A model generated the notes under the pieces. It ran no database searches. It had not been told where the DNA came from and saw nothing but the letters and a program-made list of their open reading frames with translations. A DNA stretch of 32,664 nucleotides from Candidatus Magasanikiibacteriota bacterium (GTDB lineage Bacteria; Patescibacteriota; Patescibacteriia; Magasanikbacterales; UBA922), in the NCBI GenBank assembly GCA_903837125.1, contig CAILTG010000075.1, positions 1-32,664 of the forward strand, given 5' to 3'. The translations under genes and the position numbers were made by a program. This document shows, in pieces, positions 18,736 to 29,146 of the stretch; the stretch's first letter is position 1, and the number at the start of each line of letters is the position of its first letter.

Positions 18736-18769
18736 ACCCAAGCAAAATAACAAATTTCCAATTTCCAAT

Positions 18770-18781: not shown

Positions 18782-18827
18782 ACAAAGTTAAAAATTAACA
18801 TTTGTTATTTGAATTTTGAACTTTATT

Positions 18828-24554: not shown

Positions 24555-26066
24555 TTATTTTAATAAATAATGAGCTCCAATACTCTTTTTTCTAGCCAAA
24601 GCGGCTTTAGTTATCAATATGGCAACTTGGCATAAATTTTGCAATTCAATAATTTCCTTATTAAGGCCTTTTTTTAATATTTTATTAATATTTTTATGAT
24701 AGTTATTTAATTTTTTTAAAGCTTCGGTCAATTTTTTAGTTTCTCTAATTATACCAACATTTTTCCACATTAACGTTTGTAGGTTGATTTTTATAGCCTT
24801 AATTTTTGGATTAACTGTTTTGTTAATTTTCAGTTTGGAGTTTTTTGTTGGTAGATGATAAATGATAGATGATAAATTTTTTACAAATCTTGTGGCTGAA
24901 CTAACAGCACGGGAACCAAAGACCAAACATTCAAGTAGAGAATTGGAAGCTAACCTGTTGGCTCCATGAACACCAGTGTGAGCAACTTCACCAAAGGCAT
25001 AAAGACCTTTGATATTTGTTTCTCCATAAGAATTAGTATGTACACCGCCGCAAGTGTAATGGGCAGCAGGGGCAATAGGGATTAAATCTTTATCCATTAA
25101 AATACCAAACCACCATAATTCATTGTAAAGATAGGGGAATCTGTTTTTTATGTATTCAGTACCTTTGTGTCTAAGATCTAAATATATTTTATTTTTTTTC
25201 ATTTCTTCAAAAATAGCCCGACTAACAATATCGCGTGGAGCTAAGTCTTTTAGTTCGTGGTATTTATTCATAAAGGCTACACCCTTATTGTTTTTTAAGA
25301 TACCACCTTCACCGCGAACAGTTTCAGAAATTAGAAATGTTGGTTTGCCGGGAATATTTAACGCGGTGGGATGGAATTGAATGAATTCCATGTCTTGTAT
25401 TTTTGCGCCAGCGCGCGCTGCCATGGCTACACCATCACCAGTGGCGATTTTCGGATTGCAGTTTCTAGAGTAAACCTGAGCTGATCCACCAGTGGCTAGA
25501 ATGATGGCCTTACTATAAAAAATATCAACAGTATTTTTTTCTTTGTCTAAAACTATGGCCCCATAGCAAATTTGATTTTGGACAATCAAATCAATAGCCA
25601 GATGTGATTCAAAAGTTTTTATATTTTTGTTATGGCGTACCTGAAAAATTAGGGCGCGCTCAATTTCACGGCCTGTGGTATCTTTGGCATTGGCGATTCT
25701 TCTTTCACTGTGTCCGCCTTCTTTGGTTAAAATTAATTTATTATTGAGTTGATTAAAAGCGACGCCTAATTTAATCAATTTTTTAATTTGTTTAGGTGCT
25801 TCTTTAACCATTATTTCTACAGCATTTTTATCATTCAAATAGCAACCAGCTTTTAAAGTATCTTCAAGATGTTTTTTAAAACTGTCTTTTTTATCTAAGA
25901 CGGCCGCGATTCCACCTTGAGCATAATTAGAGTTGCTTTCCATTAGTTCTTTTTTGGTTACAATTGCAACTTTGCCGAATTTTGAAGCTTCTAAGGCAAA
26001 ATTCAGCCCGGCAATACCGGAACCGATTACTAAGAATTCAAAATGAAGTATGTTTGTTTTTTTCAT
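24555..26066 (-). CDS. nadB: L-aspartate oxidase
   Basis: This 503-residue flavoprotein oxidises L-aspartate to iminoaspartate, the first step of de novo NAD synthesis. The FAD-binding motif GSGIAGLNFA is near the N-terminus. Family motifs NYAQGGIAAV, HSERRIANAKD, QFHPTAL, ETVRGEGGIL, RDIVSRAI, AAHYTCGGV and HGANRLASNSLLEC are present. The start is ATG 26066, followed by KKTNILHFEFLVIGSG; an ATG three codons upstream lies in repeat DNA. A short extra segment, NLSSIIYHLPTKNSKLKINKT, between the catalytic part and the helical C-terminal domain is encoded by 7-bp repeat DNA. Known enzymes use oxygen or fumarate as electron acceptor. It supplies iminoaspartate directly to the NadA domain encoded upstream. 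Confidence 0.94.
   Translation of the reverse strand: MKKTNILHFEFLVIGSGIAGLNFALEASKFGKVAIVTKKELMESNSNYAQGGIAAVLDKKDSFKKHLEDTLKAGCYLNDKNAVEIMVKEAPKQIKKLIKLGVAFNQLNNKLILTKEGGHSERRIANAKDTTGREIERALIFQVRHNKNIKTFESHLAIDLIVQNQICYGAIVLDKEKNTVDIFYSKAIILATGGSAQVYSRNCNPKIATGDGVAMAARAGAKIQDMEFIQFHPTALNIPGKPTFLISETVRGEGGILKNNKGVAFMNKYHELKDLAPRDIVSRAIFEEMKKNKIYLDLRHKGTEYIKNRFPYLYNELWWFGILMDKDLIPIAPAAHYTCGGVHTNSYGETNIKGLYAFGEVAHTGVHGANRLASNSLLECLVFGSRAVSSATRFVKNLSSIIYHLPTKNSKLKINKTVNPKIKAIKINLQTLMWKNVGIIRETKKLTEALKKLNNYHKNINKILKKGLNKEIIELQNLCQVAILITKAALARKKSIGAHYLLK
24853..24877. repeat. 7-bp tandem repeat inside nadB (ARATGAT)
   Basis: Three and a half copies of ARATGAT lie in the plus-strand text; on the coding strand they encode LSSIIYHL. 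The 23-base string at 24852-24874 is repeated exactly in the nadB-nadC spacer at 26112-26134, and a four-copy relative sits in nadE. It falls between the two domains of NadB. Confidence 0.75.
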
Positions 26067-26067
26067 G

Positions 26068-26134
26068 TTTATCATTTATCATTTATCATTTATTTATCTT
26101 ACGTATCCGTATAGATGATAAATGATAGATGATA
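26068..26134. repeat. Inverted 7-bp repeat arrays in the nadB-nadC spacer
   Basis: The left arm holds three TTTATCA units (26068-26088). The right arm holds three ARATGAT units (26113-26133). They are inverted relative to each other and can pair around a 24-base loop that contains a small TACG/CGTA hairpin. The structure fills most of the 72-bp spacer and runs into the nadB start region, so it might influence nadB translation or mRNA processing. Confidence 0.65.
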
Positions 26135-26138
26135 TTTA

Positions 26139-27008
26139 TTATTGTATTTTTAAACTCAGATCTAGTGCTTTCGGAGAGTGGGTAAGTGCTCCAATTGAAA
26201 TAACATCCACGCCGGTTTTAGCATATTCTGTAATATTTTTTTCATTAATTCCACCCGAAGCCTCAAAAATCATATTTGGTTTATATTTTGCTAATATTTT
26301 AATAATATTTTTTGTTTCTTTCGGTTTCATATTATCAAACATTATTGCTCCAGGGTTATGTTTAGCAAATTTTAAAGTTTCTTGTTTATTTTTTACTTCA
26401 ATTTCCCAAAAATAGTTTATGGCTTCTAGCTTACTGCTTATAGCATGATTCAGATGATTGTCTTTTATTAAGATCCAATCATAAAGTCCAAGTCGATGGG
26501 TGCCACCGCCACCGATCACAACAGCTTTTTTGTCCAATAATCCTAATGGTGTTTTGCGAGTAGAACAAATTAAAACTTTTTTTCTTGCGAATTTTACTAT
26601 TTTGTTGGTTTCGGTGGCAATGCCAGACATTCGTTGCAGAAGATTTAGAATAGTTCGTTCGGTTTTCAAGATATCCTTTATCCCACCCGTGAGAGCTAAA
26701 ATTTTCTCTCCGGATTTTACCCGTTGTCCATCATTTTTGTATTTTATTCCATGTATTTTGTATTTTGTTAGTAGCCATTTAATTTCTTCTAATCCGGCAA
26801 TAATTCCATTTTGTTTAGCAATAATATTTGCTGTGACCCGTGAATTATCTTTTATTAAAGTATCAGAGGTGATGTCGCTATTACTTCTCAGATCGTCGGC
26901 TAGGCAATTAATTAAATATTTTTTTACTTGGTCAAAATAAACTTCATTTTTTAAAGTTAGTTTTTCTTTTTGATTAAAATATTTTTTTATTATTTGTTGT
27001 TTGTTCAT
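26139..27008 (-). CDS. nadC: Nicotinate-nucleotide pyrophosphorylase (quinolinate phosphoribosyltransferase)
   Basis: This 289-residue enzyme converts quinolinate and PRPP to nicotinate mononucleotide. Motifs: DITSDT at the N-terminal domain, ERTILNLLQRMSGIAT, STRKTPLGLLDKKAVVIGGGGTHRLGL, IKDNHL, EIEVKN, IMFDNM and EASGGI. A short stretch at residues 81-92 (TKYKIHGIKYKN) is encoded by 7-bp tandem repeats and falls just before the DGQRVKSG turn. It overlaps the upstream fused nadA gene by four bases (ATGA). The PRPP substrate would come from Prs encoded downstream in the same strand block. Confidence 0.95.
   Translation of the reverse strand: MNKQQIIKKYFNQKEKLTLKNEVYFDQVKKYLINCLADDLRSNSDITSDTLIKDNSRVTANIIAKQNGIIAGLEEIKWLLTKYKIHGIKYKNDGQRVKSGEKILALTGGIKDILKTERTILNLLQRMSGIATETNKIVKFARKKVLICSTRKTPLGLLDKKAVVIGGGGTHRLGLYDWILIKDNHLNHAISSKLEAINYFWEIEVKNKQETLKFAKHNPGAIMFDNMKPKETKNIIKILAKYKPNMIFEASGGINEKNITEYAKTGVDVISIGALTHSPKALDLSLKIQ
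26739..26766. repeat. 7-bp tandem repeat inside nadC (AAAATAC)
   Basis: On the coding strand the array is AAAATAC, AAAATAC, one degenerate unit ATGGAAT, and AAAATAC: four 7-bp steps, 28 bp. It encodes most of TKYKIHGIKYKN (residues 81-92) in the N-terminal domain, ahead of the conserved turn DGQRV. The frame is kept. Confidence 0.65.
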
Positions 27009-28345
27009 AATAGTAGCATTTTGTCTAAACTTTTTTTGGCTTTGGTAATTATTTTTTTATCCAATTTAACGATTTGGTTTTTTCTGGGATTTTTTAAAGC
27101 AATTAAAATATCTTGTAAAGTAATTTTTTTCATGTAAGGACAGAGATTGCAGGTGCCAATAATATTTTTATCCGGGTGTTCTACGCGCACACGGTCAGAT
27201 AATCCACATTCAGTAATTAACATAATATCTTTGGATTCAGTTTTGTCCACGAAATTTAACAGATCATTGGTGCTACCAGCTAAATCAGCAAAATCAACTA
27301 TGTTGGGATTGCATTCAGTATGCGCTAAAATTTTAGCATTGGGAAATTGTTTTTTGACTTGCAGAATACTGTGAGCATTAAATTTTTCATGAACAATGCA
27401 AGTGCCATTCCAGAGAATTATTTTTTTGCTAGTTAATTTTTGTAAATTTTTGCCCATTAAAATATCTGGTAAAAAAATAATCTCGTCTTGGGGCAGGGAA
27501 TTAATGACTTTTAAGGCGTTGCCAGAAGTACAACAGATGTCACTTTCAGCCTTAACTTTTGCTGTGGTGTTAATATAACAAACTACGGGTCGCCCTGGGT
27601 ATTTTTTCTTAAGTTTTCTTACTTGGGCAGGAGTGATTGAATCTGCTAGAGAGCAACCAGCCAGAGTAGGTACCAGCACTTCTTTTTTAGGATTTAAAAT
27701 TTTGGCGGTTTCGCCCATGAAATAAACTGAACAAAAAATTATTTTTTTGGCTTTACTGGTTTTGGCTATTTTACTTAAAGAGTAAGAATCTCCAAGATAA
27801 TCAGCTACCCCATACATTATGTCTGGGGTTTGGTAAGAATGGGCGAGAATAATAGCGTTTTGTTTTTTCTTTAATTGATTAATTTCTAAAGTTAGAGGTG
27901 CAATTTTTAAACAATCTTCATATGAATAACAAGTTTTTTGTAGATATTCAAAAAGGCGATTGGCTTCGTCGCGAATGGCTGTTCCGGAAATCTTAACCTT
28001 AATCTTAGTTTTTCTTACTTGGTACCCTTTTTCTTTAAATAATTTTTCTGTTAGTTTGTTTCCAGTAAAAACTATATCAAAGTTTCCAACAATTTTTTTA
28101 ACATGCTGTACCCAGCGTAGGTTATTATGAATGTCAGGGATAGCCATAATTTGATATTGGTTATTTTTACCAAGCATGGTTTCAATTATTTTTTTGCGTT
28201 CAACAAAACTATAAGGATTGTCTTTGGTTCCTTTATATTGTGAACTACCAATGCCGATAATAATTTTATCAGCTTTGATTTGTTTAATGGCATCCAAGTG
28301 GCCTTCGTGGAATGGTTGGAAACGGCCAATGAACAGGGCAATCAT
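27005..28345 (-). CDS. nadA: Fusion of NMN/NaMN adenylyltransferase and quinolinate synthase NadA
   Basis: This 446-residue protein joins two NAD enzymes. Residues 1-~140 form an archaeal-type NMN adenylyltransferase: GRFQPFHEGH (7-16) holds the HxGH motif, and SGTAIR (120-125) is the second nucleotide-binding motif. Residues ~143-446 are quinolinate synthase: AHSYQTPDIMYGVADYLGDS opens the domain, and the three expected 4Fe-4S ligands appear as Cys231 (LAGCSLADS), Cys316 (NGTCIVHEKF) and Cys399 or Cys402 (GTCNLCPYM). The NadA half makes quinolinate from iminoaspartate and dihydroxyacetone phosphate. The other half adenylates the mononucleotide formed by NadC. No frameshift or internal stop separates the domains. 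It overlaps nadC by four bases. I do not recall this fusion as a standard one. Confidence 0.92.
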   Translation of the reverse strand: MIALFIGRFQPFHEGHLDAIKQIKADKIIIGIGSSQYKGTKDNPYSFVERKKIIETMLGKNNQYQIMAIPDIHNNLRWVQHVKKIVGNFDIVFTGNKLTEKLFKEKGYQVRKTKIKVKISGTAIRDEANRLFEYLQKTCYSYEDCLKIAPLTLEINQLKKKQNAIILAHSYQTPDIMYGVADYLGDSYSLSKIAKTSKAKKIIFCSVYFMGETAKILNPKKEVLVPTLAGCSLADSITPAQVRKLKKKYPGRPVVCYINTTAKVKAESDICCTSGNALKVINSLPQDEIIFLPDILMGKNLQKLTSKKIILWNGTCIVHEKFNAHSILQVKKQFPNAKILAHTECNPNIVDFADLAGSTNDLLNFVDKTESKDIMLITECGLSDRVRVEHPDKNIIGTCNLCPYMKKITLQDILIALKNPRKNQIVKLDKKIITKAKKSLDKMLLL

Positions 28346-28411: not shown

Positions 28412-29146
28412 TTATGCTGAAATTTTACAAAGTGGCGGGGAAATAAGTTTGTGTTTTGAACTGTTTATCATTTGTTTTACTTTTTCCACATCTTTTTTAG
28501 AAAATTTGCTTAAGTTTTTTTTCTTTTTAATTGCCTCTAAAATTTGATCAAGTTTTTCATAAGTAATACCCATTTCAATTTCATCAGTTTGTCCTGCCCA
28601 GAGTCCGGCAGTGGGTGCGCGGTCAATAATTTCTTGGGGGACGCCTAAATATTCGGCTAATTTTTTTACTTCAGTTTTGTATAAATCACCAATTGGCAAA
28701 ATATCTACTCCACCATCGCCGTACTTGGTAAAATATCCAGCCAGTAATTCACTTTTGTTTCCAGTGCCTAAAACCAGACCGTTAATTTTATTGGCTTTGG
28801 CGTAAAGAATTGACATGCGGATGCGAGCCTTGAGGTTTCCTGTAATCTTTTGGTCTTGTGATTTTATTATTTTTTGGTAGCTCTCCAAAATAGTTGATAA
28901 ATGATAAATGATAAATGATAAATTTAATTTTTTACAAACTAATTTTGCTAAACTTAAATCTTGTTTAATATTAGAAGAGGAGGGGAGAATGAGAATGTGG
29001 ACTTTTTTATGCCCTAAAGCCTTTACAGCTAAATAGGCCATCACAGCTGAATCCACTCCGCCGGATAGGCCAAGGACTACTGGTTTTTTGCCAGCTTGTT
29101 GTTTAATAAATTTAGTTATTTTTTGGGTAATTTTCTCCTGATTCAT
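28412..29146 (-). CDS. nadE: NAD synthetase, ammonia-dependent type
   Basis: This 244-residue enzyme amidates nicotinate adenine dinucleotide to NAD. It has the PP-loop LSGGVDSA (27-34), then GNLKARIRMSILY, GTGNKSE, KYGDGGVDILPIGDLYKT and the late RAPTAGLW(A)GQTDE. There is no N-terminal nitrilase/glutaminase domain, so free ammonia is the expected nitrogen donor. Residues around LSFIIYHLST are encoded by four copies of a 7-bp repeat, in the strand following the PP-loop subdomain. It is the first gene of the nad block. A TAGAAT box eight bases ahead of the ATG, with TTCCCA 17 bp upstream, could give a nearly leaderless mRNA, but this is weak. Confidence 0.95.
   Translation of the reverse strand: MNQEKITQKITKFIKQQAGKKPVVLGLSGGVDSAVMAYLAVKALGHKKVHILILPSSSNIKQDLSLAKLVCKKLNLSFIIYHLSTILESYQKIIKSQDQKITGNLKARIRMSILYAKANKINGLVLGTGNKSELLAGYFTKYGDGGVDILPIGDLYKTEVKKLAEYLGVPQEIIDRAPTAGLWAGQTDEIEMGITYEKLDQILEAIKKKKNLSKFSKKDVEKVKQMINSSKHKLISPPLCKISA
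28895..28922. repeat. 7-bp tandem repeat inside nadE (TGATAAA x4)
   Basis: Four perfect copies of TGATAAA, 28 bp, lie within the coding region. On the coding strand all three frames of this repeat read through as permutations of LSFIIYH, whereas the opposite strand carries stop codons. The encoded peptide NLSFIIYHLST parallels NLSSIIYHLPT in NadB. Confidence 0.78.

Follow-up and report, generated by a model that had tools for sequence, protein, structure and literature searches.

Repeat DNA is tolerated inside coding genes of Rickettsia, where the palindromic elements are insertions of a long palindrome that the host genes accommodate through stop-free reading. Tandem repeats with a seven-nucleotide unit have been described in other bacteria. 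Direct repeats of the heptamer TAACTGA occur in Beggiatoaceae, Cyanobacteria and Bacteroidetes (MacGregor 2015, PMC4679880), over a limited phylogenetic range, mostly in intergenic regions and, when in genes, at protein ends. The STRR of filamentous cyanobacteria are dispersed 7-bp units that can form hairpins in operon spacers, e.g. hupS-hupL (PMC2670836), and the title of a work cited in PMC4748335 places them within the RNase P RNA gene as well. Heptamers of the GGGNATC type in Xanthomonas and Nostoc are over-represented in a genus-specific manner, partly as inverted pairs, and vary in length and sequence at conserved intergenic positions (PMC4692102); that paper also cites bacterial heptamer over-representation along with a polymerase-footprint idea. 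The tandem repeats of archaeal Borgs are fast-evolving, independently formed and located in both genes and spacers (PMC9879509).

We analysed heptamer arrays in a stretch of 32,664 nucleotides from Candidatus Magasanikiibacteriota (hereafter the window; Table 1). A reading made from the sequence alone (the sequence-only reading) had described a 7-bp repeat within nadE, within nadB and as inverted arms in the nadC-nadB spacer, and this was confirmed by coordinates and by Tandem Repeats Finder, which in nadE reported 4.1 copies at 28895-28923 (100%), four of them perfect TGATAAA units (28895-28922). The second unit of the repeat family, beside TGATAAA, is TGATAGA, which the sequence-only reading had overlooked. 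In nadB the array is situated in a hypervariable linker preceding the C-terminal helical domain, and its 23-mer TAGATGATAAATGATAGATGATA (24852-24874) recurs without a difference in the spacer (26112-26134), as had also been claimed. The arms of the spacer are 92% complementary, 17 nt apart and were computed to fold into a hairpin of -21.8 kcal/mol (z -6.7); an Rfam search of the window gave no structured-RNA match. The arm next to nadB ends in TGATAAAC, directly followed by ATGAAA. The first ATG of nadB (26075) is within the array, and the ATG at 26066 is a better fit to the homologues. Across the window, 17 matches to TGATAAATGATAA with at most two mismatches were found, against 3.1 expected and a maximum of 8 in 100 shuffles. 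We also observed AATTTCC in 2.4 copies at 18753-18769, a short way upstream of an ORF starting at 18816, and, at 27005-28345 on the minus strand, a single ORF of 446 aa in which an NMN adenylyltransferase-like domain (PF01467) is fused to quinolinate synthase NadA (PF02445).

Table 1. Heptamer arrays and the NAD operon genes that carry or flank them, in positions of the window.
Feature	Position	Strand	Remark
TGATAAA array in nadE	28890..28923	+	minus-strand nadE reading SFIIYHL
TGATARA array in nadB	24852..24877	+	minus-strand reading SSIIYHL; sequence TAGATGATAAATGATAGATGATAAAT
Inverted heptamer arm, nadC-nadB spacer	26068..26093	-	3' hairpin arm as transcribed
Second inverted arm (TGATARA), nadC-nadB spacer	26111..26134	+	just past nadC stop
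nadE, NH3-dependent NAD synthetase (PF02540)	28412..29146	-	array host gene
nadB, L-aspartate oxidase	24555..26075	-	array host gene
nadC, quinolinate phosphoribosyltransferase	26139..27008	-	upstream of hairpin in operon

Genome-wide counts were obtained by pattern searches and by reading of stretches in the genome of the window (G000; 1.35 Mb in 101 contigs, with a G+C content of 31-35% over these stretches). The motif proved far more frequent than chance allows: two perfect unit copies matched 13 times and three TGATARA copies with at most three mismatches 56 times, compared with 0 and 4 matches for the reversed controls. About 30 TGATARA arrays are present, roughly half of them inside genes, and with AATTTCY (46 matches versus 0 for the control), which is equally dispersed, the genome has two or more such heptamer families. 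Neither the genome-wide spread nor the second family is part of the sequence-only reading. Thirteen in-gene arrays lie on the open strand in nine genes: nadE, nadB, lspA (Peptidase_A8), a methyltransferase, a FemX-like gene (a name given here, since the gene has no Pfam match), an O-antigen ligase (two arrays), a PMT_2 gene, a 789-aa membrane protein (four arrays) and mnmA. Twelve of the intergenic arrays form six inverted pairs, and a few single ones are located at starts or stops; the arrays found 0-7 nt ahead of a start precede nadB, the FemX-like gene and the C91 and C60 genes. In contigs picked blind to the motif, period-7 exact repeats numbered 7 against 0-0.2 expected, other periods 0-3, and no period-7 excess was seen in the samples read from the relatives G073, G002 and G026. 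In mnmA (C16, 19776-21021) the gene is split into two ORFs with the frame change inside a TGATAGA array, and a further heptamer array (AATTTCC) lies farther along the gene; the split may reflect a genuine off state or a fault in the assembly. Beyond this genome, record names among the matches listed for exact (TGATAAA)4 include Bacteroidales, Prevotella, Cyanobacteria, Bacillota, Chlamydiae, Planctomycetota, Acidobacteria, Desulfobacterales, Levybacteria, Peregrinibacteria and Proteobacteria such as Providencia, and four TGAYAAM copies were found in 8 of the 380 genomes of a phylum sample versus 2 for the reversed control. The lineages in which MacGregor found TAACTGA form a narrower set.

Translation confirmed the matching peptides NLSSIIYHLPT in NadB and NLSFIIYHLST in NadE and the claim that a single strand of the repeat is stop-free: TTTATCA reads FIIYHLS in every frame, and TGATAAA reads stop-stop-MINDK, i.e. 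two stops per seven codons. In-gene arrays use the open strand in 13 of the 14 clear cases in G000, the exception being one grpE array on the closed strand, 17 nt long and fitting between stops. That one open strand is used by both genes holds in G000, but it is the outcome of a stop-codon filter and not a general rule. In the relative G005 the unit is TTATCTC, its complement GAGATAN has one stop per cycle, and in-gene arrays are found on both strands, the second strand being used inside GluRS, CysRS, a class I synthetase (called IleRS from the alignment alone) and an M16 peptidase; glycosyltransferases are also among the G005 genes with arrays. Thus strand use reflects what the stop codons leave, no strand-specific mechanism is required, and strand-specific insertion was ruled out.

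The homologues do not encode the same peptide with other codons; they have different peptides made of different heptamers. In other genera, the corresponding codons of NadE, GluRS, LspA, the methyltransferase and the FemX-like protein hold period-7 arrays with other units, usually at unchanged length, a pattern that the sequence-only reading does not mention. The NadE units in four genera are TTTATCA (G000), GGTCTTC (G042), TATTCAA (G008) and CTTACAA (G017); those of GluRS are GAGATAN (G005), ATGGAAC (its genus-mate G007) and TTTTCCA (G000); those of the methyltransferase are TTATCTC (G005) and ATATCAG (G042); LspA of G005 has TTATCTC, and the FemX units include CCTACRT, CCTAAAA and TCTCAAC. 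At the sites found in G000, 24 of 74 ortholog segments, which are not independent of one another, gave a lag-7 signal at p<0.05 under an own-gene null, compared with 2-10 at control lags 4-6 and 8-13 and 19 at the double lag of 14. In a null model that keeps the peptide and draws its synonymous codons anew, p was 0 to 0.0105 for NadE in four genera and 0.035 or less for FemX in eight genera, so the peptide alone is insufficient for the period-7 signal. The sites found in G005, an independent second sample, showed a weaker effect (6 of 27 at lag 7 versus 1-4 at other lags). In-register similarity of orthologous arrays ranked first in 21 of 31 pairs, a figure that separates inheritance from independent hits on permissive sites poorly because conserved residues can also give in-register similarity. 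In G000 the NadE array does not share the register of its relatives and looks as though the dominant unit of the genome had overwritten it. The G005 unit has 48 matches versus 0 in its own genome and is sparse elsewhere. The NadE unit of G017 is not dispersed in G017, so not every site holds a genome-wide unit. Periods of 8 and 9 occur in the NadB linker of G008/G009 and in spacers of G032/G035, and the step is thus not always 7. Two further arrays were noted in these relatives, namely a AAAGTTGG octamer array in nadB of G008, which contains an in-frame TAA with the frame open to either side, and an alternating TGATAGA/TGATAAA array of ~188 nt in G007 (C23, 27919-28106).

Alignments showed that length is for the most part kept in conserved cores. 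In NadE the repeat takes the place of a native strand and is not an inserted peptide, the alignment being gapless both against relatives and against solved NadE structures, e.g. 2e18; the methyltransferase and FemX-like arrays have a net-zero length change, the LspA array is within natural length variation, and the IleRS array, common to G005 and G007, is gapless against several relatives without an array. NadB, in contrast, has its array in the hypervariable linker and CysRS of G005 is ~8 residues longer, so true insertions are found as well, at loose sites. At the same LspA loop, lspA of G015 has a different, longer insert (RGSAHWRSRSNPKEVGDCFATLRSARNDR). Together, these data suggest that conserved protein cores can be rewritten by repeat DNA and that a site outlasts its repeat unit, which is exchanged or overwritten.

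The spacers ahead of nadB and femX likewise have repeats or hairpins that are specific to the lineage. Between nadC and nadB, G000 has the heptamer hairpin, G030 has heptamers, G032/G035 have nonamers, G042/G008/G017 have other hairpins and G029/G033 have an almost empty spacer. Ahead of femX, heptamer hairpins are present in G000, G005 and G043, hairpins of inverted nonamer arrays (AGCAGAGTA-type) in G011 and G023 and another hairpin in G008; elsewhere this spacer is short or of other kinds. A conserved NAD-operon regulatory element was ruled out, as relatives have other units, periods or folds or lack the spacer. The hairpin was likewise rejected as a universal part of the arrays, since under a strict pattern inverted arms stand beside only a few of 100 intergenic (TGATAAA)4 arrays from other phyla.

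The best explanation, to which we give about an even chance, is 7-nt-step copying at tolerant sites combined with spread of a dominant unit. Mutation in steps of 7 nt would create or maintain period-7 arrays where protein and operon tolerate them, and length-conserving copying at a 7-nt offset, by slipped or template-switched synthesis, would homogenise local units. The units that dominate a genome (TGATARA and AATTTCY in G000, TTATCTC in G005) could then spread to already similar sites through short homology-guided template switching, selection would retain copies that are in frame, without in-frame stops and at tolerant positions, and fold-back synthesis would yield the inverted pairs. Array function is not required by this explanation, and slippage alone does not account for the number 7. 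We infer the mechanism from sequence patterns, i.e. the arrays themselves, the period-7 excess, the unit differences at orthologous sites, the mostly unchanged length and the inverted intergenic pairs; among the relatives compared (~50-65% protein identity, one pair at 87%) no intermediate or mutation event was found. A bolder version, which we consider rather doubtful, is an active, clade-specific 7-nt-step DNA synthesis (due either to a trait of a polymerase or to a dedicated enzyme) that overwrites permissive sites with a favourite heptamer and keeps their length; if true, orthologous enzymes of each genus would hold a different repeat at the same place. The mutational mechanism becomes testable at the matched sites of NadE, GluRS, IleRS and LspA, essential enzymes in which the site is kept, the unit changed and the length mostly the same.

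Several other readings of the arrays were weighed. It is unlikely that they are remnants of a mobile heptamer-hairpin element (MITE-like or REP-like) moved in trans and leaving half-elements in genes. The six inverted pairs, the same array-start context in nadB and femX, the shortness of hairpin-less spacers, as if they were empty sites, and the presence of AATTTCY and TGATARA at at least 20 places each would fit such an element, but zero-length replacement in conserved cores and the different units at the same site among genera do not, and, although inverted arms exist, neither fixed ends nor target duplications were seen by eye. Furthermore, a search with the Y1_Tnp profile (PF01797) gave no match in G000 and matches in five control genomes, so RAYT/REP mobility was rejected with the lack of a Y1 (RAYT) transposase. 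We hold a regulatory role, in which closed-orientation copies just ahead of starts control translation and in-gene copies are by-products, to be similarly improbable. Such control has been proposed for TAACTGA in Beggiatoaceae, which often stands just before start codons (PMC4679880), and the start-adjacent arrays of nadB, the FemX-like gene and the C91 and C60 genes, the strong hairpin ahead of nadB and the 22 of 100 intergenic (TGATAAA)4 arrays elsewhere that lie at most 30 nt from a downstream ORF start are in line with it. Many relatives, however, have no such spacer, its unit, period and fold vary between those that do, and roughly half of the arrays in G000 lie within genes.

A still smaller likelihood is given to phase-variable contingency loci, in which 7-bp copy changes toggle genes. 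A heptanucleotide case is known from Haemophilus HMW1A (PMC8262952), and the two ORFs of mnmA overlap at the array with a frame offset such as one 7-bp unit would give, but this is a single frameshifted case in about nine genes, possibly an assembly error, and the NadE, GluRS and IleRS arrays keep a constant length across genera. That AT-rich codons of hydrophobic strands converged by chance would suit the low G+C content of G000 and the mostly hydrophobic peptides of the copies, which fall in strands, membrane segments or loops, yet this is hardly credible, being refuted by the shuffle and reversed-pattern controls, the synonymous-codon null and the control lags.

In our preferred reading the arrays belong to the heptanucleotide tandem repeats of the STRR/TAACTGA kind and are not a dedicated NAD-operon element. 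Like the Rickettsia elements, they are repeat DNA tolerated in genes through stop-free reading, but NadE, the methyltransferase and FemX show no insertion here. With TAACTGA, a rotation of TGATAAC and thus one base from the unit here, they share dispersed tandem sets, one strand with stops and the other open (peptide LSVISYQ for TAACTGA) and a position often immediately ahead of start codons, with some sets in genes. They differ in that the unit is TGATAAA/TGATAGA, genes hold about half of the arrays, with several of them in conserved cores, inverted pairs are common and other heptamers occupy orthologous sites; a forward position upstream of a start, the majority situation for TAACTGA, was found for nadB, the FemX-like gene, C91 and C60. 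Of the STRR features, tandem 7-bp units in at least three copies and above-chance dispersion are both present. As to intergenic, hairpin-forming copies, the six inverted pairs and the strong nadB hairpin stand beside the half or so of the arrays that lie in genes; the units and the phylum are different, and the arrays here also lie in protein genes at unchanged length. The GGGNATC heptamers resemble them in genus-specific over-representation, inverted pairs and variability at conserved positions and differ in being G-rich, quadruplex-forming and intergenic. Borg repeats are likewise fast-evolving and found in genes and spacers, but their in-gene units are all divisible by three (PMC9879509) and the in-gene unit here is 7. 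In the partial library available, no account was found in which coding sites that are orthologous differ in their heptamer and keep their length, nor a tested account of why the unit is 7, how it spreads and what it does to genes. The heptanucleotide repeat itself is of a known kind (PMC4679880, PMC2670836, PMC4692102); the persistent coding sites, the turnover of the unit and the conserved length look like new features of such repeats.
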